NCBI GenBank assembly: GCA_016892645.1 | Contig: JAFEMX010000010.1 | Location: forward strand, 62,001-126,000 | Length of the DNA: 64,000 nt | Direction: 5' to 3' | Source: Micrococcaceae bacterium RIT 802 | GTDB lineage: Bacteria; Actinomycetota; Actinomycetes; Actinomycetales; Micrococcaceae | Shown here: positions 12,079 to 34,180 of the stretch, piece by piece | Layout of the letters: each line of letters opens with the position of its first letter | Position numbering within the stretch: the stretch's first letter is position 1 | Notes under the pieces: generated by a model | What the model was told of the DNA's origin: nothing | Database searches by the model: none | What the model saw: only the letters and a program-made list of their open reading frames with translations | Made by a program: the position numbers and the translations under genes

Positions 12079-13791
12079 TCAAAGCCTGCGGCGGCCGGCC
12101 AGCAGGCCGTGCAGCAGGGGCAGCACCGACACGCCCATCAGCACGGTACCCAGCACCTGGTCATCCGGCCGGACCAGCGCTCCGGCAATGAGCAGTGCCG
12201 CGAAGACCAGCGCCGAAATGGCCCGTCGCGCCGTGCGCTCCAGGCGGGCCACCTGGCGTTCGAGGCGCGGCGTGGCGACCGCGAGCGACCCGTCCTCCAG
12301 ACGGGTGACCACCCCGTCCAATCGCCCGGGCAGACGCACCGCCGTCGTCACCGCGTCGAGTGCATGTTGGGCCACGTCCTGGACGAGGTTTCCGCGCTCC
12401 TCGCGTAGCAGTTGCGCCGCGTAGGGCTCCACGGTGTCCCAGAGGTTGAACTTCGGATCCAGGGAACTGCACACCCCGGAGGTCAGCGACATCGCCCGGA
12501 TAATGAGCAGGAAGTTCTCCGGCAGCTGGAACGGCAGGGACCGGACCACATCACCGAACTCGGCGGCGAAATCCCGGAATTCGCGTGGATCCACCTCGCG
12601 CAGTTCGGCAAATCCCATCCCGCCGAACCGGGCGAAGAGGTGCGTCATGGCCCGTTCGAGTTCAGCGGTATCGGCGGTGGGCAGCAGCACCCCCACCTCG
12701 CCGATGGCGGCGACCAACCCCTTGCCGTCGCGCGACGCGGCGGCGATCAGCAGTTTGCGCAACCCGCGGCGGGTGCCCGGGGGCACGTCGCCCATCATGC
12801 CGAAGTCGATGAACGTCAGCTTCCACGGGCGCCCGGCCACCGGTTGGGCGGTGGGCGTGACGAAGATGTTGCCCGGGTGCGGATCTGCGTGGAAGAAGCC
12901 GCTGCCGAACAGCTGGTCGAACATGACCGCGCCGAAGGCGGGGGCGACCTCCGCCGGGTCGATGCCCGCCGCGCGCAGCCCCTCCAGGTCGGAGATTTTG
13001 ATGGCCGTGACGTCCTCGAGCGCCAGCACGCGTCGGCTGGTCCGTTCCCAGACGATCCGGGGCACGGCAACGGCGTCGTTGTCGGCGAATTCGTCGGCGA
13101 AGCGTTCTGCTTGCGCGGCCTCGTGCAGGTAGTCGATCTCCTCCAGGCTGGTGTGGGCGAACTCCTCGACCAGCGCCGGCATGTCGGCGCGACGAGACAC
13201 CAACCGGATGTGGCTGAGCCAGCCGCCGACCTTGCGCAGCGCGGCGAGGTCCACGTCGACGATCGCCTCGATGCCCGGGCGTTGGATCTTCACGATGACG
13301 CCCGCGAACCCGACGTCGGCGGCGGCTTCGGGCAGCAGCTGCGCCCGGTGCGCCTGGCCCAGGGATGCCGCCGCGACGGGCGTCTCATCCACCCATGCGA
13401 AGACTCGATCCAGCGGCGCGCCCAGTTCGGCCTCGGCCAGGGCCCGCACGTCGGCAAACGGGACCGCTGGCACTTCGTCCTGCAGCCCCTCCAGTTCCGC
13501 GGTGATCTCGGGCGGGAGCACGTCGAGCCGGGAGGAGAGGAATTGCCCGACCTTGATCATCAGCCCACCGAGTTCCACCGCCAGGGCGTGGAAGCGTTGC
13601 GCGAAGCGGCGCATCCGCCGAGCCCGCGAGCGTTCGGCGAGCCTGGCCAGGCCGATGCGGGGCAGGAACAGCTCGAACCACCAGATGACCGCCAGATGCC
13701 AGGCGGCGAACCGCAGGATCCGGCGGTAGCGGGCGCGGGTGCTTCCGGCCCCCGATGCCGGGCGTGCCGGGCCCCGGCCACGTGATGTCAC
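12079..13791 (-). CDS. ABC1/AarF/UbiB-family atypical kinase
   Basis: This 570-residue protein starts at GTG 13791. It has the family KxGQ region (GLMIKVGQFLSSRLDVLP, about 77-94), an Ala-rich nucleotide loop AAASLGQAHRA and ADPHPGNIF with the metal-binding DFG-like FIDFGMMG. Two C-terminal hydrophobic helices (about 520-560) anchor it to the membrane. UbiB/ADCK proteins support quinone or lipid metabolism by an ATPase activity; the substrate here is unknown. It is cotranscribed with the PadR regulator, whose stop lies 5 bases upstream, so its expression is probably under PadR control. Confidence 0.88.
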   Translation of the reverse strand: MTSRGRGPARPASGAGSTRARYRRILRFAAWHLAVIWWFELFLPRIGLARLAERSRARRMRRFAQRFHALAVELGGLMIKVGQFLSSRLDVLPPEITAELEGLQDEVPAVPFADVRALAEAELGAPLDRVFAWVDETPVAAASLGQAHRAQLLPEAAADVGFAGVIVKIQRPGIEAIVDVDLAALRKVGGWLSHIRLVSRRADMPALVEEFAHTSLEEIDYLHEAAQAERFADEFADNDAVAVPRIVWERTSRRVLALEDVTAIKISDLEGLRAAGIDPAEVAPAFGAVMFDQLFGSGFFHADPHPGNIFVTPTAQPVAGRPWKLTFIDFGMMGDVPPGTRRGLRKLLIAAASRDGKGLVAAIGEVGVLLPTADTAELERAMTHLFARFGGMGFAELREVDPREFRDFAAEFGDVVRSLPFQLPENFLLIIRAMSLTSGVCSSLDPKFNLWDTVEPYAAQLLREERGNLVQDVAQHALDAVTTAVRLPGRLDGVVTRLEDGSLAVATPRLERQVARLERTARRAISALVFAALLIAGALVRPDDQVLGTVLMGVSVLPLLHGLLAGRRRL

Positions 13792-13796
13792 CCAGG

Positions 13797-14339
13797 TCAG
13801 CCCTGGGCGAGGATCGAGTACAACCGCCGGCGCGCTTCATCGAGCACCGCGACGGCTTCCTGCACTTGTTCCGGTGAGCCGGTGCGGCCCACCTGGGAGG
13901 CTGCCTGGGCGAGTTCGAAACCTGCCTTGGGCAGGGCCGCAAATGTGCCGCCTCGCTCCGATTCCGCCGGCTCCCAGGGGGCCGGGCCCTCCGAGGCGTC
14001 CAGGTCCTCGCGGCCGGCTTCGGTCAGCGAGTAGATTTTTCGCCCGCTGGATTCCTCGGCGCTAATGAACCCCTCGTCGGCGAGCAGTTGCAGAGTCGGG
14101 TAGACGGAGCCGGCGCTGGGTTTCCAGTTGCCACCGCTGCGCTCCTCGATTTCGCGGATGATCTGGTAGCCGTACATCGGGCGTTCCCCGAGCAGCGCCA
14201 GTACCGCCGAACGCACCTCACCGCGTCCCGCGCGGGTGCCCGTGCGCTTCTCGAACCGTGAGCGCAGGTCCTCGAGGGCCTGCCAAACGCCATCGAAGCC
14301 GGCTCCGCCGAACCCTCCGGCCGAATGTGAAGTGTTCAT
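13797..14339 (-). CDS. PadR-family transcriptional regulator
   Basis: This 180-residue protein has a PadR winged helix (VRSAVLALLGERPMYGYQIIREI at about 42-64, then GSVYPTLQLLADEGFI) and a C-terminal helical dimerisation region. The start at 14339 follows a GGAGGAG site. It precedes the ABC1 kinase by 5 bases in one operon. A GATA-rich inverted repeat lies just upstream (14374-14397) and is the natural autoregulatory operator. PadR proteins usually repress their own operon until a small molecule or membrane stress relieves them; the signal is unknown here. Confidence 0.88.
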   Translation of the reverse strand: MNTSHSAGGFGGAGFDGVWQALEDLRSRFEKRTGTRAGRGEVRSAVLALLGERPMYGYQIIREIEERSGGNWKPSAGSVYPTLQLLADEGFISAEESSGRKIYSLTEAGREDLDASEGPAPWEPAESERGGTFAALPKAGFELAQAASQVGRTGSPEQVQEAVAVLDEARRRLYSILAQG

Positions 14340-23712: not shown

Positions 23713-24906
23713 ATGATGGCCATCGAGACGGCCGAGAACGGCACCGCCGACCTGGCCAAGGCCGGGGAGTTCCTCCAACTGCTCCGCGACGGACGGCCCC
23801 GCACGCGCGCCGAGTTGGCGCAGGTGACCGGCATGGCAAGGTCGACCATTGCCTCACGCGTCGAGACGCTTCTGCAGCTGGGTTATGTCTCCCCCGTGGG
23901 TGATTCGACGTCAACCGGTGGACGCCCACCCTCACTCTTCGCCTTAAATCCGAACGCTCGCGTCGTCATCGGCGCAGACCTCGGAGCGACGCACGCGCGG
24001 GCCGTATTGGCGAACCTAGCCGGTGAAGTGAAGGCAGAGTTCTGGGAGCCCCTGCCCATTGCGGACGGACCAGAGAAAGTCGTCGGATGGCTGGCTCAAA
24101 CCATCGGTAGGTTGCTCGAGGAGGCGGAATGCACCGCTTCCGACTTGGCCGCCATCGGCGTCGGCCTTCCTGGCCCCGTCGAATTCCAGACAGGCCGTCC
24201 CGTGAGCCCGCCGATCATGCCGGGGTGGGATGGGTATGACCTGCCAGCACGGCTCCACAGGGAATACGACGTTCCGGTACTCGTCGACAACGACGTGAAC
24301 ATCATGGCCCTTGGCGAGTACAAAGCGAACCTGCCCAACGACCAGGACATACTATTCGTCAAGGTCGCCACCGGCATTGGTGCAGGTCTCGTGGCCCACG
24401 GGCAATTGATGCGCGGCGCCCAAGGTACCGCTGGCGACCTGGGGCACGTTCGTGTTCCCGGCGGGCCAGATACGTTGTGCACTTGCGGCAACGTTGGCTG
24501 CTTGGAGGCCGTTGCCAGTGGCCCGGCCATAGCCAAGAAGCTCGGCCTCGCAGCCGAGCCCGGTCAAAACATCCCCTCGTTGGTCGCGCAACGAGTCCGC
24601 GATGGCGACGCGGAGGTGATCGCAGCAGTCCGCCAGGCCGGGAGGGACCTAGGCAGTGTTCTCGCAACCTGCGTCAGCATGCTGAATCCGTCGGTGATCG
24701 TCGTCGGTGGTTCGCTGGCCCAGGTCGGTGAGCACCTTTTAGCGGGAATACGTGAAGTCGTCTACCAGCGGTCACTGCCACTGGCGACGAAACATCTGCG
24801 GATTATCGCGTCTACGGCTGGCTCGCATGCAGGCGTCCTGGGGGCCGTGGCACTGGCTACCGATTTTGCCCTCTCAGCCAGCGCGATTGAAACGACACGC
24901 TGCTAG
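23713..24906 (+). CDS. ROK-family transcriptional regulator
   Basis: This 397-residue NagC/XylR-type protein has an N-terminal winged helix (RAELAQVTGMARSTIASRVETLLQLGYV, about 32-59) fused to a ROK sugar-kinase-like domain. The DLGATHARAVLANLAG phosphate-like motif opens that domain and VDNDVNIMALGEY follows. The zinc site CTCGNVGCLEAVASG is present near residue 257. The catalytic Asp (VDND) is kept, as in many regulators, but ligand sensing rather than catalysis is expected. It is divergent from the two-dehydrogenase sugar operon and is its likely repressor, released by the imported sugar. GAGGA precedes two tandem ATG codons (23713 and 23716). Confidence 0.88.
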   Translation: MMAIETAENGTADLAKAGEFLQLLRDGRPRTRAELAQVTGMARSTIASRVETLLQLGYVSPVGDSTSTGGRPPSLFALNPNARVVIGADLGATHARAVLANLAGEVKAEFWEPLPIADGPEKVVGWLAQTIGRLLEEAECTASDLAAIGVGLPGPVEFQTGRPVSPPIMPGWDGYDLPARLHREYDVPVLVDNDVNIMALGEYKANLPNDQDILFVKVATGIGAGLVAHGQLMRGAQGTAGDLGHVRVPGGPDTLCTCGNVGCLEAVASGPAIAKKLGLAAEPGQNIPSLVAQRVRDGDAEVIAAVRQAGRDLGSVLATCVSMLNPSVIVVGGSLAQVGEHLLAGIREVVYQRSLPLATKHLRIIASTAGSHAGVLGAVALATDFALSASAIETTRC

Positions 24907-25308
24907 CAACTGAAGGCTGCTCACCAGCATCTTCAGCGATCAGAACCTCGTTTCTACGAGGACCCCTCAACTCGTCGACATGGGGACGTAATCAGGCATG
25001 GTTGCCATTCCGACCGACGATGGACGCAGCAAAACAGGCTCCCGGGCAAGTCCGATTCCATTCAACGCGATGCCCCTGCCCCCCACTAAATACAGGTGCC
25101 GGTCAGCAAATATACGGCCCACATCACCGGACACGGCGAAGCGATGTCCGACGCCGGTCTATCACCAGAACGCATTGTTTCGCGCGCATACGCCACGATG
25201 AGGGGGATTCTCGCGCCAACCGCACGCTGCATTTAGACCACACGAAATTGCGCCATTGATTGCTCGGTGGACGGAAAGTGGTCTCCCGAAATCGTCAATC
25301 CAAAGGCA
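24907..25308. other. Non-coding left border of the defence island
   Basis: About 400 bases after the ROK gene have no convincing gene: two overlapping frames of 60-85 codons lack ribosome binding sites and look random. GC falls steadily toward 25300. TTTCTACGAGGACCCC near 24950 is a possible weak hairpin region. No tRNA, integrase site or repeat was recognised, so how the island entered cannot be read here. Confidence 0.5.
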
Positions 25309-25343
25309 TTGACACCCTTCATTTCCGATATATAGTCAATATA
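25309..25343 (+). promoter_or_regulatory. Near-consensus promoter giving a leaderless transcript
   Basis: TTGACA at 25309-25314, a 16-base spacer and TATAGT at 25331-25336 match a primary-sigma promoter closely. The ATG of the first island gene begins at 25343, only 6 bases after the -10 box, so transcription should start on or next to the A of the start codon. No ribosome binding site is present. Confidence 0.75.
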
Positions 25344-25594
25344 TGTCCGATAAATTCTCCGAACGTAAGTTGTACGAGTCTCGAAACGATAGATTTCGCC
25401 GGTTGGCTTCCACTCGAGGGGATCGACTTATTCGAGAGATTTCCTTACTGGGCAACCTAGCCAACCGAAAGAACTACGAGTACACGTCCGATGAGGTGGA
25501 AGCTCTTTTTCGCCCCATAGAGGTCGAGCTCCAAGAGGTGCGTGCCCTCTTCGATCCCGCATCTCCCTCCGAAAGAAAGGTGTCATTCGAATGA
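25343..25594 (+). CDS. Small conserved protein opening the GHKL defence operon
   Basis: This 83-residue, highly charged, helical protein has a central LLGNLANRKNYEYTSDEVEALF (about 35-56). From memory this type of segment recurs in small proteins next to restriction and GHKL-ATPase genes, but I know no function. No membrane helix, cysteine pair or nuclease motif is seen. It is read from a leaderless promoter at 25309 and its stop overlaps the GHKL ATPase start as ATGA, so the two are translationally coupled and may form a complex. A regulatory or scaffolding subunit is a guess. Confidence 0.7.
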   Translation: MSDKFSERKLYESRNDRFRRLASTRGDRLIREISLLGNLANRKNYEYTSDEVEALFRPIEVELQEVRALFDPASPSERKVSFE

Positions 25595-27474
25595 CCGATC
25601 AGAACTTCGGCTTCTACTTCGAAGCCGCCGGCAAGGCAGCCACCCAAGGCGCAATTTCTCCTGCCGCACAGTTCTTCGAAGGCTCACGGGCTGAAACGTC
25701 CTTGGTCCGCGAGACGGGACAAAACTCCATCGATGCCGGCGCCGGCGCCGTGAAAATAGTTTTCGAATTGGCCGACATGCCCACAGACGACATTCCAGGA
25801 ATCGCTGGTTTGCGAACCCATCTGGCACAGGTGGAAGAGCAGACACGGGGTTCCCAAGGGCACGACAACATGGAGTTGGCGAATGAGACGTCACTGCGAA
25901 CGTCGATTCCGGTGCTGCGCATCAGTGACTATGGCACCAAAGGCCTGGCCGGCACAGAGTCCATCAATGACCCCAAGTCCCCGCTCAGCGCCCTGACGAG
26001 GGGCGCGGGAATCTCCGCTGACGACGGATCCCGCGGCGGTTCCTTCGGAATCGGTTCGGCCGTAGGACCTATGGCCTCGGACATGAGCACCGTCCTCTAC
26101 ACATCCCTCCCCTTGGGCGGCAACGAAGTGGTCTTCGCCGGTTACAGCTGCCTGGCTTCCCACCGTGACACCGAGGGGATCTGGCGAGTGGGGGACGGTT
26201 TCTTCACGGACCGAGCTCACGCAGAAGACTTCCGCTACTTGCGTGACCCCGAACCCATCGGGCCATTCCCAAAACGAACGGACGCCGGGACCGACCTTTA
26301 CATCCTTGGATACCGCAAAGCCGAAGAGGACCCCACCCTTCAGCACATCAAGGTCGCCTTCATGAGGAATTTCCTCATGGCCATCCACAGAGGCGAACTC
26401 GTCGTCGAGGGAAAGACCCCAATAGGAACATGGCGTCTGGATGCCGAAAAGCTCAAGACCCACGTGGCCGAAGACCAGGAAACCGCGGCTTTCTACCGCG
26501 CGATCACGGACCCAAATCCGATCCTCGGAACCCACGATATGCTCGGCCAAATCAGCCTGTACATCAACGTCGACGACTCCCTATCGAAATCGCTGCATAC
26601 CATCGCCGTCCGGAAACCGCTCATGAAAATCGACACCTTCAAACACACCTCGATTCCAGTGAAGTACGCAGCTGTGCTGGAGTGCTCCGATGAGAAGGGC
26701 AACACCCTCTTGCGCAAGCTCGAGCCACCCCAGCACCACAAGTGGGATGCCGGGCGGTCACCTGGGGGCGGGAAAATCATCAGCGACCTCAAGACTTTCG
26801 TCCGCAACGGTCTCAAGAGTCGGGTCAAGGAGCAAATCGGAGAACAGGTCCACGTCAAAGGCCTATCCAAATACCTTCCGGACGAGTTGTTCGAAGAGAG
26901 GACTCTGACCGAAGCCGCGCCCGCAGGCACCCCGGGCACAGGGTCAGGAACCACTAGGGAGTCCAGCACGGTCCAAGGCCGCGCAGGAGAGGACATGCCC
27001 GCCTCCGCCAGCGGTCGAAAGGCCGTCAGCGTCCGGGTGAAGACCTCGGCCGGCGGCGAGGGCTCGTCCCCTGCCGAAAAGGGGAAGGATGCGGGCGGAG
27101 GCAAGAAGCGCAACAACAAGGGTGGGAACATCGCGGGCGGTGGCACGGAAGGTGATGGAACGGGCCGCATCAGCGCCGGTGACATCCGATTCCGGAGCTG
27201 GTCCGATGCCACCACCGGTGACGTCTGCCTCGCACTGACCTCCCCAGAAGACATTTCCGGTGACGTGCAGCTTCTCGCGCTCGGACCGGGCGGGAGCGTC
27301 GAGGAGGACTACGAGCTGCCGATCGACAACGCCTCCATCATTACCGCAGGGGTTACTACCCCGCTCAAGCACAAGGGAAATATTTTGGCCCAACTGGAAC
27401 TCAAGGCCGGGACCACATCTCAGGTCCGACTCAAGCTTTCGTCCAATCACCGCTACCGTCTGGGGATCAAATGA
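25591..27474 (+). CDS. GHKL (MutL/MORC/Hsp90-type) ATPase of a defence module
   Basis: This 627-residue protein has a Bergerat-fold ATP site: N-box RETGQNSIDAG (E41, N45, D48), a second motif DYGTKG (D113, G115, G118) and a glycine-rich lid GGSFGIGS (149-156). Residues about 160-430 resemble the transducer region of such ATPases. A Gly/Lys/Ser-rich, probably disordered linker (about 440-545) leads to a small beta-rich C-terminal domain. ATPases of this class are known from bacterial restriction-linked operons, where they are thought to act as ATP-driven clamps. Here it is coupled to the genes before and after by ATGA overlaps. No helicase is encoded beside it. Confidence 0.8.
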   Translation: MTDQNFGFYFEAAGKAATQGAISPAAQFFEGSRAETSLVRETGQNSIDAGAGAVKIVFELADMPTDDIPGIAGLRTHLAQVEEQTRGSQGHDNMELANETSLRTSIPVLRISDYGTKGLAGTESINDPKSPLSALTRGAGISADDGSRGGSFGIGSAVGPMASDMSTVLYTSLPLGGNEVVFAGYSCLASHRDTEGIWRVGDGFFTDRAHAEDFRYLRDPEPIGPFPKRTDAGTDLYILGYRKAEEDPTLQHIKVAFMRNFLMAIHRGELVVEGKTPIGTWRLDAEKLKTHVAEDQETAAFYRAITDPNPILGTHDMLGQISLYINVDDSLSKSLHTIAVRKPLMKIDTFKHTSIPVKYAAVLECSDEKGNTLLRKLEPPQHHKWDAGRSPGGGKIISDLKTFVRNGLKSRVKEQIGEQVHVKGLSKYLPDELFEERTLTEAAPAGTPGTGSGTTRESSTVQGRAGEDMPASASGRKAVSVRVKTSAGGEGSSPAEKGKDAGGGKKRNNKGGNIAGGGTEGDGTGRISAGDIRFRSWSDATTGDVCLALTSPEDISGDVQLLALGPGGSVEEDYELPIDNASIITAGVTTPLKHKGNILAQLELKAGTTSQVRLKLSSNHRYRLGIK

Positions 27475-28331
27475 GCAGCACCACCCGCGGCTCGTACCCG
27501 CACCCCGTACTCGACGATTCGGACGACGTCGATGCCGAAATCGAGGTCTTCAACGCATCGTTCGCCCCGAGCGTCGATGACGTCGAAATCAAGTTCCAAG
27601 TGCGCATGACCGAGCCGCGGATCCAGGTCCTCATCGACGAGGGGTCGGCTCGTTACAGCTTCCGGTGGTCCTGCACTGCCACCCTTGCCAACGAGGAACT
27701 AGGTGCCGAGATCAACATGTATCATGCCGACAGCACCGGCTACGTCGGATGGATCGACCAGCAATCGATCAGCGGCACGGTCAGAATCGAAATGAGAGTC
27801 ATCGCCACCAAGCCCATCGGGAATTACCGGCCGGAAAACCAGCACCCCGACTACGGCGACGCGGACTTTCACCTCCTGCCCGGCGACATTCTCGCAGATG
27901 CAGGCGTCCTCGAATTCGAGGCTGAGAAGCTCTACGACCCGCTCAACCCGCCCCTCGGGTCGTGCTTCAAATTCGTTGCCGATTCCAACATGAAGCGCGG
28001 CTTGCGGGTCAGGTTCGACGACGACGAGCACATTCTCGTGACCTTCCCCGTAGAAGTTCTGCACGGGTTCGGCATGCTCCGCAACCGTCAAGACCTGCAA
28101 ATCAGTCTCGTCGTCCTCCCCGCCCTGATGGAAACTATCTCCTTCATCAAGGCTAATGAAACGTCCGGCGACGAAGACGAAAATCTGACCGACAGGCATT
28201 GGTACACCGCCATAACCCGGCTAATGCAAGCATCACGTTCCAGCGACATGCGCCCATTCGAGATGGCACAGGAAATCCTCGGTAACCCCTTGGACACATC
28301 TCTCACCACCTTCGACGATTTGGGGGACTAA
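27471..28331 (+). CDS. Beta-rich hypothetical protein coupled to the GHKL ATPase
   Basis: This 286-residue acidic protein begins with a conserved-looking SYPHPVLDDSDDVDAEIEVF, followed by alternating strands to about residue 210. The helical tail contains HWYTAITRLMQ and PFEMAQEILGNPLD. No catalytic motif is evident. I believe similar proteins opening with YPxPVLxxxDDV accompany GHKL ATPases in other defence operons, but this is from memory. The start overlaps the ATPase stop (ATGA). It may recognise phage structure or DNA, or serve as a partner of the ATPase; nothing in the sequence decides this. Confidence 0.65.
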   Translation: MSSTTRGSYPHPVLDDSDDVDAEIEVFNASFAPSVDDVEIKFQVRMTEPRIQVLIDEGSARYSFRWSCTATLANEELGAEINMYHADSTGYVGWIDQQSISGTVRIEMRVIATKPIGNYRPENQHPDYGDADFHLLPGDILADAGVLEFEAEKLYDPLNPPLGSCFKFVADSNMKRGLRVRFDDDEHILVTFPVEVLHGFGMLRNRQDLQISLVVLPALMETISFIKANETSGDEDENLTDRHWYTAITRLMQASRSSDMRPFEMAQEILGNPLDTSLTTFDDLGD

Positions 28332-28334
28332 ACA

Positions 28335-29090
28335 ATGGAAGATAACCGCGCCCGCTCACTCACCCACCAGGCCTTGGTCGAGCTCCAATCCGCGCTCGAC
28401 GCCGCCAATACCTACGAAGACTTCTTGGCCCACGCGGACACGATCGTTCACCGTGAGGAGAACCAGCTGGAATTGCCGGTGGAGCTAGGGGCCCCAGAGC
28501 ATCTGGACGCCACGAAAGTCGCTGGACGCGACGTACAGAATGCCCCCCTCGTGTATGAGTATCTAGGAGCTTTGGACCGCGCCAACGCCTCGGACCGACG
28601 GCTATGGACCTTCCTCGCATTTTCGACGTACCGCGAATACATGGAAAACCGCTGGCCACTGGCCGAAGTACGCAATTGGAAAGGCCGTGTTCGAGACCGC
28701 TGGCTTATGGGCAACTCCACCCGAGGGCGGCTGATCAGGCACGGCATTGCTCGTCTCTGGTGGGTGTCCTCCCTGACCTACGACCCCCAAACGAAGCATC
28801 CCCTAGCACAAGCCGCGGGCGACCCCTTCGCCTATACACGCGAGGCCTTCAAGAATGAGGACCGGCTCAATGCCCTATTCGATCGGGAGGCCGGAGCGCT
28901 GCCCGACCTAGTCCGCAGCGTCCTCGAATACGCAACCCAAGGCGGCCCGCAGGCCACAGACAAGCACCTCCAAGTCATAATGAAGGAAATGACGCTTGTC
29001 TACGGATACCGCGACATCTCCTATTTGGATGCAGATGGCTTGCGTTCCCTCGTCGCCGAATCCGCACCCCCCGTTCCTGCAGGCAAATGA
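28335..29090 (+). CDS. DUF6339-like protein of the GHKL module
   Basis: This 251-residue helical protein has a core ASDRRLWTFLAFSTYREYMENRW (about 85-107), then RDRWLMGNSTRGRLIRHGIARLWW (about 120-143) and YTREAFKNEDRLNALFDRE. These Trp- and Arg-rich blocks match my memory of the DUF6339 family, which is found in operons with GHKL ATPases and Z1 helicases. No enzymatic motif is known for the family. The gene starts 4 bases after the previous stop, and the operon's tight spacing ends with it: 138 bases separate it from the HNH nuclease. Family assignment is tentative; membership of the module is secure. Confidence 0.6.
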   Translation: MEDNRARSLTHQALVELQSALDAANTYEDFLAHADTIVHREENQLELPVELGAPEHLDATKVAGRDVQNAPLVYEYLGALDRANASDRRLWTFLAFSTYREYMENRWPLAEVRNWKGRVRDRWLMGNSTRGRLIRHGIARLWWVSSLTYDPQTKHPLAQAAGDPFAYTREAFKNEDRLNALFDREAGALPDLVRSVLEYATQGGPQATDKHLQVIMKEMTLVYGYRDISYLDADGLRSLVAESAPPVPAGK

Positions 29091-29228
29091 ACATGGCAAG
29101 CCGTTCTAGACGGTGCGGGTACCACTGCGCCATCACAGGCGGACATGGGCCTATGGATTCACAAGAAAAGCAAAATGCCACGCAACACCATGCAGCGAAT
29201 TTTTTGCGCCGAGAGCTGGAGAGACCAC

Positions 29229-30422
29229 ATGGACACCGAAAAGAATGTCGCGCCAAGTGGATTAACTGCCACAGAAGCGGCCGTACGACTTGGGCTTGAT
29301 CCAAAGACGTTGCGCCAGAAACTACGCGACGGAGTCCTTCTTGGCCACCAGATCCACGGCAACCGATGGAATGTTCAGGAAAGCGATCTGGCTGCCTATG
29401 CCCGCAGTGTGGGCAATGGCGGTCGACAATCACCGGTCATCCCCTCCCCTGTCTTTTCCCCGGTTACCGACAATCCGACTGAGGTCGTGGGAACTAGGGC
29501 ATGGTTGTTGCTGGCAGTATCCGGGGGGCGAGCCTTCGGCAGCAACGACGGCTACGACGACAAGCCCACGACCCACTACAGGTGGGATGACACCGTCGGC
29601 AATCACGGCCATATCAACGTGGGGGACGCGGTGGTGCTCTGGGACAAGAAGGCCAGTATTGGGGCTTCAGTCATCGAATCGATCGAAACCCAGCATGGAA
29701 ACAAGCGAGTGTACAGCTGCCCGAACTGTGGCAAGGCCTCCTTCAAGGAACGCAAGACCAAGCAGCCCCGATATCGGTGCTTCAAGTGTGGCAAAGACTT
29801 CGACCAGCCGGTGAGCAAACGCAAGGATGTCCTCGAATATACCGCCCAATACCAGACATCGTGGGTCGGCCTCGAAGGGCTGCTCGACGGTGCCACGCTA
29901 CGGGCATCATGCATACATCCAAGAGCCCAGCTCAGCATACGGAACCTTAATTGGCAGAAGTTCCACGATGCCGTGTCAGCAGCCAGCGGACCGGAACTGA
30001 TGACAGTTTTGGAGGCCTCGAAGCGAACCATTGCCGGCGGACACCGGACCGCCAACGTTCGCGTGCGAGTTGGGCAAGGGTCCTTCCGTCACGATCTGCT
30101 GGCCTCTAGGGGAAACATCTGTGCCTTCACCGGTCCCACGCCGGCCCAGGCCTTGGAAGCTGCCCACCTCTACAGTTTCGCAACGGTCGGTGAACACCAC
30201 GAGCATGGTGGTCTGTTGATGCGTCGTGACCTACACCGCCTTTTCGACCTCGGTCTGATCGCCATCAATCCGGCCAACCAAACTATTAGCGTCTCGAAGA
30301 CCCTCGCCGGGTATCCACACTACGGCGAGATGGAAGGCAAACCGCTGCACGTGGAATTGAGAGGACGACAGCTGAGCTGGCTGACCGAGCACTGGGAGGA
30401 ACACCGCACGGGCAAGAGTTAA
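29229..30422 (+). CDS. HTH / EVE-like / zinc-ribbon / HNH nuclease
   Basis: This multidomain protein of 397 residues starts at ATG 29229 behind GGAGAG. Residues 11-60 form an excisionase/MerR-like helix-turn-helix (LTATEAAVRLGLDPKTLRQ). Residues about 88-155 look like an EVE/PUA-type domain (AWLLLAVSGG to GDAVVLWDKKASIGASVIE), and C164/C167 with C184/C187 make a zinc ribbon. Residues about 285-345 are an HNH_2 nuclease (C298, EAAH with H313, LHRLFD with H336). EVE-HNH fusions are known modification-dependent restriction enzymes that cut phage DNA with altered cytosines. This one has an extra DNA-binding head and zinc ribbon. The EVE call is by pattern only. Confidence 0.72.
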   Translation: MDTEKNVAPSGLTATEAAVRLGLDPKTLRQKLRDGVLLGHQIHGNRWNVQESDLAAYARSVGNGGRQSPVIPSPVFSPVTDNPTEVVGTRAWLLLAVSGGRAFGSNDGYDDKPTTHYRWDDTVGNHGHINVGDAVVLWDKKASIGASVIESIETQHGNKRVYSCPNCGKASFKERKTKQPRYRCFKCGKDFDQPVSKRKDVLEYTAQYQTSWVGLEGLLDGATLRASCIHPRAQLSIRNLNWQKFHDAVSAASGPELMTVLEASKRTIAGGHRTANVRVRVGQGSFRHDLLASRGNICAFTGPTPAQALEAAHLYSFATVGEHHEHGGLLMRRDLHRLFDLGLIAINPANQTISVSKTLAGYPHYGEMEGKPLHVELRGRQLSWLTEHWEEHRTGKS

Positions 30423-30571
30423 GTCGTCCCACGACCCATCACACCACGCCCCCGACTGACGACTTGTCGGTGGCGGCTGCGATGCTAGCCATCCCAACTA
30501 GACATCAAGGGGAAGTTTTCCCCCGGCGGTGTTCCGTACGGCGTGGCATTTACCGATTCGCCTCGAAATGC

Positions 30572-30582
30572 GACATGATGTC
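30572..30582. promoter_or_regulatory. Palindrome before the methyltransferase gene
   Basis: GACAT-G-ATGTC at 30572-30582 lies 25 bases upstream of the methyltransferase GTG. The gap 30423-30607 carries no gene. The methyltransferase has its own N-terminal helix-turn-helix, so this could be an autoregulatory control site of the restriction-modification pair. Confidence 0.45.
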
Positions 30583-30607
30583 ATGTAGTTAACCCAGATA
30601 GGATGCC

Positions 30608-31849
30608 GTGGAAACGTCGACTGAACTTCTTGCCCTCGCCCGTGCACGCTACACACAGCGTCAGCTCTCCGAGCAACTCGGAGTTACCGGCCGAACAATC
30701 GCCCGGTGGGAACACGGCGAGACCCCCTTGCCGACCATGCTGGCGCCTGCCTTGCGTGAGCTACTGGGCATGAAACCGGCCGCAGAGGATGCTGAGTTCC
30801 GGTTTATCGACCTATTCGCCGGCATCGGCGGGATCCGCAAGGGATTTGAGTCCCATGGGGGGCGGTGCGTGTTCACCAGTGAGTGGAACGATTGGGCGAA
30901 GAAGACCTACCTGACCAACTTCCCCGATGAGAATGATCCCGAGCACGTTTTCATCGGCGACATCCAGCCCCTCCCTGCCGCCGAGGTCGCCGACCACGAC
31001 GTGTTGCTTGCGGGGTTCCCCTGCCAGCCCTTCTCCATAGCCGGCGTGAGCAAGAAGAACGCCTTAGGCCGGGCTCACGGCTTCGAGGACGCCACCCAAG
31101 GCACCCTGTTCTTCGACGTGGCCCGGATCATCGATGAAAAACGCCCCGCCGCGTTCATGCTGGAGAACGTGAAGAACCTACGCTCCCACGACAAGGGCCG
31201 CACTTTCGCAGTCATCATGGCCACCCTGGAAGAGGAACTGGGCTACCAGGTCCACACCAAGGTGATCGACGGAATCAGCTTCACCCCGCAGCACCGCGAA
31301 CGCATCATCATTGTCGGTTTCCGCGAGCCGACCGATTTCAGCTGGGACGACTTGGAATTGCCACCAGTTGGTCCGAAGCTAGAAACCATCCTTCACCGCA
31401 CCGACGGCACGGAACCGGTCTTGGAATGGGACGGGGATCGATTCTTCGACCACGACAACGCGTCCGTGCAGCCGAAGTACACTTTGACACCGAAACTGTG
31501 GGCCTACCTGCAGGCCTACGCCGCCAAACACAAGGCCGCCGGCAATGGGTTCGGGTTCGGGTTGGTCCATCCCTCTGGAACCTCCCGCACCCTCTCCGCC
31601 CGCTACTACAAGGATGGTTCCGAGATCCTCGTCGCCCAAGGCGCGGGCCGGCCTCGACGCCTGACCCCTCGTGAGTGCGCTAGGCTGATGGGCTTCGATG
31701 ACAGCTACCGGATCCCCGTCAGCGACACCCAGGCTTACCGGCAATTCGGCAACAGTGTCGTGGCCCCGGTCATGGCAGAGATCGCTCGCATCATGACCCC
31801 CCACGTCCAAACCATCCTGGCCCGGCAGGAGAACCCGCTGGTGGCCTAG
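30608..31849 (+). CDS. Dcm/M.EcoRII-type DNA (cytosine-5) methyltransferase
   Basis: This 413-residue enzyme is complete. It has an N-terminal XRE-like helix-turn-helix (about 15-36), motif I FAGIGG (70-75), motif [10 protein letters not shown] with catalytic C139, motif VI ENV (186-188), motif VIII QHRER (228-232) and C-terminal motif X QFGNSVV. The target-recognition region has [20 protein letters not shown] and [16 protein letters not shown], closely resembling E. coli Dcm and M.EcoRII. It therefore predicts methylation of the inner cytosine of CCWGG. It starts with GTG 30608 behind AGGA, 54 bases before the EcoRII-like nuclease gene. It protects host DNA from that enzyme. The CCWGG specificity is inferred from similarity. 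Confidence 0.9.
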
Positions 31850-31903
31850 GCCGACACCTGACAGGCCTACCCCGTAGATAATGCTCGACACCAAGGAGAA
31901 TTC

Positions 31904-33166
31904 GTGGAACTCGGCCATCTGGCCGACCATTTCGACGGCGTGGCCGCCAAGGTCCTCAGCCGCGTCGAGACGGTCGGGCATGGATCCCACCAACATGAAC
32001 TCGCCGGAACTCGAGCATTCCGGGAGCTATTCGGAGCGCCGGCCGGTAGTGTGCCGCTGTCCACCAGATTCATATGGGCCACAGATGAAACAGATGAGCC
32101 GGTTGTCGAGGAGGGGACTCTCACTTACTACGACGCCCGCGCCGCCAACCCACACCGAGGTGCCGAATTCCGCCTTTACTACCCAGCTCATGTGGAGGCG
32201 ATGAAGAATGCCCAGCCCGGCGACGTCGTTTTCATCGCACGCCAAAAGGACGGGTCGGTGCTTCTCATCGTCGCGCCAAGCGGCTCGAGCGTAGCTGCGC
32301 AACTGGACTGGCTTTTCGGCACCGACGCCCTCGAGCGCCACGAATACTCCGTACGCAGCAACCTGAATGAGAACCGGGACGAGCTTGGGCTTCCGGCCCT
32401 GTATCTGCTGGACATGCTCGGCATCGTCGTAGAGCCCATCATCGAGCCTGCTGGCGAGAGTTGGCTCGAACAACTCATTAATAAGTTCGGTTCAAAGTTT
32501 CCGCCGACTGCCGAATTCGGGGCCTTCGCACGCTCCACCCTCCCAGATCTAGATGCCCGAGAAGACCCTGACGGCGTGCTGATGGCTTGGTTAGAACGCG
32601 AGGAACTCCTTTTCCGCACTCTGGAACACCATTTGGTCACAGACACCCTCAATGCCATCTACATTAGAGGCCAGGTCGACGTGGACCAGTTCGTCGCCGA
32701 ATCCCTGCGCATCCACAACCGACGCAAAAGCCGGGCCGGCAAAAGCTTGGAGCACCATCTCATCGCAATCTTCAATGCCCTTGAAATCCGGCATTCCTTC
32801 GACAAAGCAACCGAAAACGATGTCCGACCCGACTTCATCTTCCCCAGCATCGAGGACTATCATGACCCCGCCGTCCCGGCCTCACAGCTGACGGTCCTGG
32901 GGGCGAAAACCACTTGCAAGGATCGCTGGCGCCAGGTCCTCAGCGAAGCAGAACGCATCGGGCAAAAGCATCTACTCACTCTCGAGAGCCCCATCAGTCT
33001 GGGACAGACAAAGGAAATGCAGACCCAGAAACTGCAACTGGTGATCCCCAAGCCCCTTCATTCCCCTTACAAGCAGGAGCAACAATCGTGGCTGATGGAC
33101 GTCGCCGCGTTCACCGAACTAGCCAAAGCTCGGGATCAGCACGGTCCTTCGTCTAATATCTTCTGA
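31904..33166 (+). CDS. EcoRII-type type IIE restriction endonuclease
   Basis: This 420-residue protein is full length for EcoRII. The N-terminal half (about 1-190) corresponds to the effector-site DNA-binding domain. The C-terminal half carries the PD-(D/E)XK-like catalytic core: RPDFIFPS with D310, then LTVLGAKTTCKDRWRQVL with K335 and R341, and KHLLTLESPIS. The D-x24-K-x5-R spacing is what I recall for EcoRII. Type IIE enzymes need two copies of their site, one as allosteric effector, so phage with sparse sites escape. It starts at GTG 31904 behind AAGGAG, directly after the matching methyltransferase. Cleavage before CCWGG is predicted. Confidence 0.9.
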   Translation: MELGHLADHFDGVAAKVLSRVETVGHGSHQHELAGTRAFRELFGAPAGSVPLSTRFIWATDETDEPVVEEGTLTYYDARAANPHRGAEFRLYYPAHVEAMKNAQPGDVVFIARQKDGSVLLIVAPSGSSVAAQLDWLFGTDALERHEYSVRSNLNENRDELGLPALYLLDMLGIVVEPIIEPAGESWLEQLINKFGSKFPPTAEFGAFARSTLPDLDAREDPDGVLMAWLEREELLFRTLEHHLVTDTLNAIYIRGQVDVDQFVAESLRIHNRRKSRAGKSLEHHLIAIFNALEIRHSFDKATENDVRPDFIFPSIEDYHDPAVPASQLTVLGAKTTCKDRWRQVLSEAERIGQKHLLTLESPISLGQTKEMQTQKLQLVIPKPLHSPYKQEQQSWLMDVAAFTELAKARDQHGPSSNIF

Positions 33167-33247
33167 CCTCGGCTCAAAACCTGCGTCACGCCGATACACA
33201 TTGCACGGATACTCCGATACCGCTCAAAGAGAAGGTAAGTTCAGCCC

Positions 33248-33445
33248 ATGTCACAGAAGAAGATTGCCCTCGAATTCGACATAGACAGTGTCACCGATGC
33301 CCGGGCCTTGGCTAGGGCTCTGAGATCAGTCTTCGAAGCCAGCAGGGTCGGCGACGGGACCATATACATTGAGGGTTTCGCCATGAACCCCAAGGACGGA
33401 TGGAGCCGCGGCGACCACTGGATCGACATAATCAACAAGGCCTAG
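33248..33445 (+). CDS. Small hypothetical protein at the end of the defence island
   Basis: This 65-residue protein, MSQKKIALEFDIDSVTDARALA and on to DHWIDIINKA, is predicted alpha/beta with a helix at about 18-31 and strands around it. No motif is recognised. GAGAAGG at 33229-33235 lies about 12 bases before the ATG, a plausible ribosome binding site. It follows EcoRII by 81 bases on the same strand and shares the island's lower GC. It could be an accessory of the restriction system or an unrelated cargo gene. Confidence 0.5.
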   Translation: MSQKKIALEFDIDSVTDARALARALRSVFEASRVGDGTIYIEGFAMNPKDGWSRGDHWIDIINKA

Positions 33446-33581
33446 AGCACCATGTTTCCTGTTCTCCAAGGAAGTTCCTCATGCCGGATGACCGGAGAAA
33501 TTGCCCGCATTCGACGATGCCCGCCACCCCCAAGGCGCCGTCCTATAGAGTCGATGGAATGAGCGGATCCAAAGAGCGTGC

Positions 33582-34180
33582 ATGACTGCCCCCACGCAAC
33601 GGGCAGCGTCCAAGACTGCCACTCAGCAGCGGATCGTGGACGCCGCCTTCACGCTTTTCCGTGAGCACGGCTATGAGGCCACGACGATGTCCCACATCGC
33701 CCGTCAGGCAGAGACCAGCCGCCCCAATCTGTATCTGCACTTCACGTCCAAGACGCAGATCGTGCTCGACCGGATGAAGTCCATCGAGCCCAGCGCCACG
33801 TCCATGTATAACGAACTTGGTGATCTGGAGGCCTTCACGACGGACAACATGCTGGATTGGCTGCGGTCGACGGGCAAGGACATGTGGCGCAGCCACAGTG
33901 CAGAATTCGATGCGATCAACCGAGCCACGACGACCGATGACGAGGTCCTGGATGAGTGGCTCGGGCTGCATCGACGGATCAGTTCCCGACTCGCAGACCG
34001 GTTGTGCCGGACCTGGACGGTGACGATCGCACGGCGTGGCAAACCTACCTGACAACGCTTTTGGTGGGATTGGAGCGCAACTTCTATTTCATCTACATCA
34101 GGGGCCACGCAGAGCGGGAAGAATTCGCCCTGCGTGGCCTGGCCCACCAATGGGCCGGATTCCTAGGTGCCCAATACTAG
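33582..34180 (+). pseudogene. TetR-family regulator with a frameshift
   Basis: The N-terminal part (33582 to about 34000) is a good TetR protein: QQRIVDAAFTLFREHGYEATTMSHIARQAETSRPNLYLHF is the helix-turn-helix. After SRLADRL the frame changes. The current frame ends in 15 unrelated residues at 34052, while the neighbouring frame continues sensibly as VPDLDGDDRTAWQTYLTTLL to GFLGAQY, with stop at 34180. One inserted or deleted base in the CGGTTGTGCCGG region (about 33998-34010) explains this. It is either a recent mutation or a sequencing error. No clear target gene lies beside it. Confidence 0.75.

Follow-up and report, generated by a model that had tools for sequence, protein, structure and literature searches.

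The 397-amino-acid protein encoded in the middle of the window (the whole stretch of 64,000 nucleotides that was analyzed) is predicted to be an EVE-HNH, type IV-like enzyme, in a variant that carries a helix-turn-helix (HTH) head and a zinc ribbon within its EVE fold. The gene adjoins a complete type II restriction-modification (R-M) system and is linked to the candidate defence module PDC-M33. We estimate at roughly 60% the probability that this nuclease is a modified-cytosine-dependent type IV enzyme which forms a second layer of protection beside the R-M system and is blind to CmCWGG. The open reading frame is real and intact; a start at the alternative in-frame ATG, at 29145, would lengthen the protein by 28 residues. 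Its features are as follows.

29229..30422, plus strand: nuclease gene; HTH, EVE-like domain with inserted zinc ribbon, HNH nuclease (Pfam, alignments, AlphaFold2, VIA)
29262..29405, plus strand: HTH_17 or Xis/BldC-like head, residues 12-59 (Pfam HTH_17, E = 5e-7)
29484..29999, plus strand: EVE/PUA-fold domain, residues about 86-257 (AlphaFold2 and VIA)
29718..29789, plus strand: zinc ribbon C164-x2-C167...C184-x2-C187, inside the EVE fold (alignments, AlphaFold2)
30069..30419, plus strand: HNH nuclease domain (Pfam HNH_2; HMMER alignment to 6yex)

The original prediction, made from the sequence, placed an EVE/PUA fold at residues 88-195 and proposed structure prediction as the check. Structure prediction bears it out, with a PUA-type fold at about residues 86-257. 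The AlphaFold2 model of the whole protein, built on 21 sequences, had a mean pLDDT of 79.9 with a confident core, and segment 86-264 predicted alone had a mean pLDDT of 88.7 and a pTM of 0.81. When the whole model was searched with Foldseek, the only significant match was VcaM4I (PDB 6yex; E = 2e-7), for which 5mC/5hmC-dependent EVE-HNH activity has been demonstrated experimentally (PMC7897488). VIA aligned 241 residues of the two proteins with a Z score of 12.9 and an rmsd of 6.8, the latter probably because the orientation of the domains differs. The expected resemblance of the HNH nuclease to a proven modification-dependent enzyme was therefore recovered at the level of structure, VcaM4I being the best match.

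For the isolated domain, ranks 1-29 of the VIA list were essentially all PUA-superfamily folds, with Z scores (5.4-8.8) near the noise range, below 8, in which a match can reflect a common arrangement. The EVE domain of VcaM4I scored 8.8, other EVE domains 7-8.4, ASCH 7.7, YTH 7.6, THYN1 7.2, and the N-domains of archaeal McrB 6-7. Beyond rank 29, Z was at most 4.9 and unrelated folds were mixed in. Two readers of modified cytosine fell below this drop, the 5hmC-specific PD-T4-3 (Z = 4.9) and MspJI (Z = 4.1). Foldseek returned no significant match for the isolated domain, the uniform PUA list coming from VIA re-alignment only, and a ribbon-free profile found nothing relevant in the PDB. Thus, the EVE/PUA assignment rests on the uniformity of that list together with the full-length match to VcaM4I.

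Profile comparisons gave a fainter signal. Pfam EVE (PF01878) had no match in the protein or in the genome. The hhalign comparison with seven real EVE proteins was weak (probability 14.5%) yet colinear, and the global alignment exceeded 30 of 30 column shuffles, whereas the local score did not beat the shuffles. This alignment placed WDGVRN over W119-DDTVGN and RLSV over QLSI. The EVE domain of VcaM4I has itself been described as distant from other EVE domains (PMC7897488). The ribbon, which gave sub-threshold zinc-ribbon matches in Pfam at about residues 160-191, lies in the AlphaFold2 model between strands 151-163 and 195-207. It is therefore an insertion in the EVE fold and not a domain after it, which settles a choice (inside or after) that the original prediction had left open.

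The likeness to VcaM4I extends over residues 89-391 of the window protein, with an EVE-like domain followed by an HNH domain. Pfam HNH_2 matches residues 298-347 (E = 1e-9). In the HMMER alignment to 6yex, H313, H336, and D340 correspond to H224, D250, and D254 of VcaM4I (residue roles from PMC7897488), and all three are invariant in divergent homologues in both alignments. Neither protein has a metal ligand before the first histidine (A312 in the window protein and S223 in VcaM4I). The two differ in that D250 is replaced by His336 and the structural Asn241 by Gly327, but exchange of N241 in VcaM4I had very mild effects only (PMC7897488). The HNH fold also matched that of TagI (PDB 6ghs; VIA Z = 11.5 over residues 281-396), an SRA-HNH enzyme with an SRA reader in place of EVE and neither ribbon nor HTH.

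The modified base is held in VcaM4I by a pocket of P24, W82, and Y130, and among these residues only Y130, when lost, impaired the results of all three assays (PMC7897488). Read from the same weak profile alignment, the nearly invariant Q234 of the QLSI motif (RLSV in EVE proteins) probably corresponds to the wedge Gln, Q128 of VcaM4I, and the position of Y130 appears to be occupied by S236. Hence, the ligand may differ, or the pocket may be differently built. VcaM4I further differs from the window protein in having no HTH head and no ribbon inside its EVE fold, and the window gene differs in having M33 and a type II R-M system as neighbors.

Homologues were collected from plasmids, phages, and viral contigs and from genomes in the family, order, and phylum to which the window belongs. 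One genome scan for related loci yielded two Bacteroidota loci only. The conserved core spans residues 90-393, with W92, Y109, D111, Y117, G132-D133, the ribbon cysteines, and the HNH residues invariant; C164, C167, and C184 never vary, and C187 is nearly invariant or replaced by His. A survey for the same domain order, as originally proposed, counted 43 full-length proteins with EVE-ribbon-HNH in the scanned loci, that of the window among them. The proposed order held only without its first element, because the HTH head is limited to three members of one clade (the window, L016, and L021); L049 has an HTH of another kind, and L022 and most others have none. In the window protein the head is indeed excisionase-like, matching BldC (Z = 7.5) and Pukovnik Xis (Z = 7.2) in VIA.

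Given this patchy distribution, the head appears to be an accessory, and the EVE-ribbon-HNH core the functional unit. Two Rhodococcus plasmids carry the same core joined to ScoMcrA's N-terminal head (PDB 5zmm, E = 3e-16; L017 8704-8994 and L018). This reuse supports a type IV role, since ScoMcrA (head-SBD-SRA-HNH) is an HNH type IV enzyme, although its readers are SBD and SRA domains, whereas the window protein lacks an SBD and has an HTH as its head. The contexts of homologues are those of defence: Mza, DndH-like, and R-M systems, and prophage cargo beside the portal gene in SEN8. Possibly another composite defence cluster is seen at L025 (8296-17272) and L026, where EVE-Zn-HNH stands in a row with Vsr, a C5 methylase, and a protein of 1888 aa whose C-terminal part is DndH/HerA-like.

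Copies of the gene differ in their state of preservation. Salmonella phage SEN8 carries an intact copy between the portal gene and cos. Near relatives of the SEN8 gene were found in 12 of 5426 E. coli genomes, and annotation splits the gene in two in all 12 (for example, L070 4994-5967 in the E. coli C21 prophage). Actinobacterial copies that are split or have an in-frame stop were found at L019 (9001-9850), L160, L161, and L162. These actinobacterial copies suggest that the EVE-Zn-HNH gene decays frequently.

The two genes downstream of the nuclease, the first of which starts 185 bp from it, form the neighboring R-M system.

30608..31849, plus strand: Dcm-type C5-cytosine methyltransferase with an N-terminal HTH (PF00145, E = 7e-79)
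31904..33166, plus strand: EcoRII-type restriction endonuclease (PF09019 EcoRII-C, E = 2e-59)

The methyltransferase had been taken for a host enzyme that methylates cytosine. Its product is very probably CmCWGG, judging from 52% identity to E. coli Dcm over the catalytic and target-recognition regions. But it is not alone: the endonuclease next to it, which the original prediction missed, as it did the PDC-M33 module directly upstream of the nuclease, matches EcoRII in the PDB (E = 2e-39) and has the segments NRRKSRAGKSLE and KTTCKDRWRQ in common with it. Dcm is therefore one half of a complete R-M system, and the sequence likenesses indicate that this system is probably CCWGG-specific.

A reader of CmCWGG would attack its own host, and so the nuclease must ignore this mark. 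This inference, already drawn in the original prediction, is sound and gains strength from the intact EVE-HNH genes that stand beside or near 82-84% identical Dcm enzymes in L016 and L023. Most simply, the reader would be unresponsive to 5mC in the CCWGG context. Since VcaM4I digests 5hmC DNA faster than 5mC DNA (PMC7897488), a modest change could give blindness to CmCWGG.

Conversely, the nuclease might depend on 5mC and read CmCWGG after all, as a type IV enzyme that the host suppresses or tolerates by other means such as low expression or HTH autorepression. VcaM4I reads 5mC as well as 5hmC, and in PcaRCI/PcaRCII, a Dcm-like R-M system with an antagonistic HNH enzyme, PcaRCII targets the mark of the co-resident system and survives silenced by promoter methylation (PMC8989522). 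That pair resembles the present one in combining a Dcm-type C5 methylase and a type IV-kind HNH enzyme in one genome; PcaRCII differs in standing apart from the methylase and in its N-terminal three-helix DNA-binding bundle. Frequent breakage of the gene, in 12 of 12 prophage copies from E. coli and in several copies from actinobacteria, would also fit. However, the E. coli copies belong to one prophage lineage and are thus weak evidence on conflict with the host Dcm, the SEN8 copy is intact, and so is the gene beside or near Dcm in the window, L016, and L023. No CCWGG site was found between 28372 and 30145, so silencing of the PcaRCII type would have no such site to use upstream of the nuclease. 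We consider a tolerated CmCWGG reader improbable.

As to control by the HTH head, a search for operator repeats found no direct or inverted repeats of at least 9 nt in 29060-29240; 30415-30640 had a single imperfect inverted repeat of 9 nt. The idea that the island avoids CCWGG was considered and set aside: 15 sites were present versus 21.9 +/- 4.3 in shuffles (23 of 500 shuffles had as few) and a Markov expectation of 21.2, a deficit that is unconvincing once base composition is allowed for.

The suggested pairing of the nuclease with a cytosine methyltransferase describes the window, where the two are adjacent, but does not extend to the family. C5 methylases were present at 15 of 54 EVE-Zn-HNH loci and 6 of 35 matched HNH_2 controls (Fisher P = 0.31), counts that are rough because related loci are included and the detector is a regular expression. 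The link is confined to some lineages, and no C5 methylase was detected within about 8 kb at 39 of the 54 loci. These counts bear on a reading in which the nuclease is an HTH-directed, sequence-specific restriction enzyme for unmodified DNA against which the adjacent Dcm would protect the host. Although C5 methylases do adjoin the nuclease throughout the M33 clade and in some other lineages, protection of this kind would be impossible at those 39 loci, most of the family has no HTH to direct cleavage, and Dcm already has its cognate EcoRII-type endonuclease. Such a role is very improbable.

Repair of deaminated 5mC (T:G mismatches) by the nuclease, in replacement of Vsr, would account for the presence of Vsr in the EVE-HNH-free M33 loci L203, L205, and L206 and its absence from the window, L016, L021, and L022. 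These loci are few, Vsr and EVE-HNH occur together in L025, L026, and L049, and most family members have no C5 methylase neighbor; we give this idea hardly any credence.

Directly upstream of the nuclease are, in order and as consecutive genes, all three components named for PDC-M33, a PADLOC candidate defence system, preceded by a small conserved gene.

25309..25336, plus strand: sigma-70-like promoter TTGACA-16-TATAGT (11 of 12 consensus matches; consensus match only)
25343..25594, plus strand: 83-aa ORF that opens the M33 cluster (conserved upstream of M33A)
25591..27474, plus strand: PDC-M33A, GHKL-like ATPase (PADLOC E = 7e-83; motifs ETGQNSIDA and DYGTKGL)
27471..28331, plus strand: PDC-M33B (PADLOC E = 5e-33; 4-bp overlap with M33A)
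28335..29090, plus strand: PDC-M33C/DUF6339 (Pfam DUF6339 E = 1e-37; PADLOC E = 7e-31)

The promoter-like site was the only one found in 24900-33600, and its -10 element ends 7 bp before the ATG at 25343, so that a leaderless transcript is possible. The 83-aa ORF recurs directly upstream of M33A, with 48-85% identity, in L016, L021, L022, and L203-L206, and it may be a fourth PDC-M33 component; EVE-HNH matched none of the M33 components. M33A had no match in Pfam and none in a PDB profile search for its fold, and it is called GHKL-like on the strength of its motifs, of which E41, N45, D48, D113, and G118 are invariant in 9 homologues. A search of a limited set of papers found nothing on PDC-M33 or DUF6339. 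The block of 25.3-33.2 kb has a G+C content of 59.4%, against 67.1% elsewhere in the window, a drop that an imported island would be expected to show.

Among 390 genomes of the family, M33A was present in five and a full-length EVE-Zn-HNH gene in eleven; three had both, side by side (hypergeometric P = 1.6e-4, or 3.5e-3 without the window genome). EVE-HNH was present in four of seven actinobacterial M33 loci. It adjoins DUF6339 in three of them (the window, L021, and L022); in L016, a Paenarthrobacter plasmid, the M33 genes are inverted and lie on the other side of the Dcm-endonuclease pair from the nuclease. The four nucleases form one clade (97/94, protein tree), but their partners are Dcm and EcoRII in the window and L016 and Mza-type in L021 and L022 (Z1, AIPR, DUF4420 or HATPase, and a divergent C5 methylase). 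As M33 is kept while the R-M partner changes across the clade, the nuclease tracks M33 more closely than it does any particular methylase.

Each of the 10 PDC-M33 loci examined had a restriction or restriction-like system next to the module, with a C5 methylase in 9 and N6-methylases in L208. Among those with no EVE-HNH, L203 and L205 keep Dcm, Vsr, and an EcoRII-type endonuclease, L206 has Dcm and Vsr, L207 has Dcm and a Sau3AI-like enzyme, and L208 has N6-methylase systems. L204 (6016-8891) has an 82% identical Dcm with an MvaI/BcnI-family endonuclease and no EcoRII type, which by sequence is an endonuclease swap behind a conserved methylase. In L205, a Shedu nuclease (12736-13881) directly follows DUF6339, in the slot of EVE-HNH in the window.

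Linkage of this strength, and the persistence of one nuclease clade across R-M partners, are what might be seen if the nuclease were the PDC-M33 effector, licensed or recruited by the GHKL-like ATPase, M33B, and DUF6339, with other nucleases filling the slot elsewhere (Shedu in L205 and a MutH/Sau3AI nuclease in L207). Against this, M33 occurs without EVE-HNH in L203, L204, L205, L207, and L208, most EVE-Zn-HNH genes have no M33, Dcm and the endonuclease intervene in L016, and a shared defence island explains the linkage without partnership. We regard an effector role as unlikely, if worth keeping in mind.

Under the preferred reading, of a type IV second layer blind to CmCWGG, the EVE-like domain would scan DNA and flip a modified base into its pocket. 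This base would most likely be a cytosine bearing more than the plain methyl group at CCWGG, and by analogy 5hmC or glucosyl-C (a larger adduct) is a plausible target. Binding may then release or position dimeric HNH domains, autoinhibited as in VcaM4I, for a cut near the modified site. The zinc ribbon may brace or extend the DNA-binding face, and the HTH head may provide an extra DNA contact or autoregulation. The EcoRII-type enzyme would cut phages whose cytosine is plain, and the EVE-HNH nuclease would cut those that evade the R-M system by modifying their cytosine.

MDREs are usually described as orphan enzymes. The window nuclease sits in a methylase cluster, which counts against reading it as an MDRE, though the methylase has its own EcoRII-type endonuclease. 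Layered, complementary protection has been demonstrated for BREX and the type IV enzyme BrxU (PMC8565348), and Bell et al. predicted such layering for EVE with type I R-M systems (PMC7641849). More speculatively, and with rather long odds against it, EVE-Zn-HNH and PDC-M33 could make up a single mobile unit able to dock onto various C5-methylase systems (EcoRII-type R-M or Mza). Through the GHKL-like ATPase module, cytosine methylation in the host would then be coupled to a nuclease that destroys hypermodified cytosine but leaves methylcytosine alone, in a single two-layer system.

The family defined here is a subfamily of EVE-HNH proteins, widespread in actinobacteria, prophages, and Bacteroidota, whose zinc ribbon is built in and whose heads are interchangeable. 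The window locus provides a natural test case of a putative cytosine-modification reader living with a 5mC methylase, and a reader of modified cytosine that passes over CmCWGG could become a 5hmC-selective tool. The uncharacterised M33 module, in turn, turns out to accompany C5-methylase restriction systems repeatedly.
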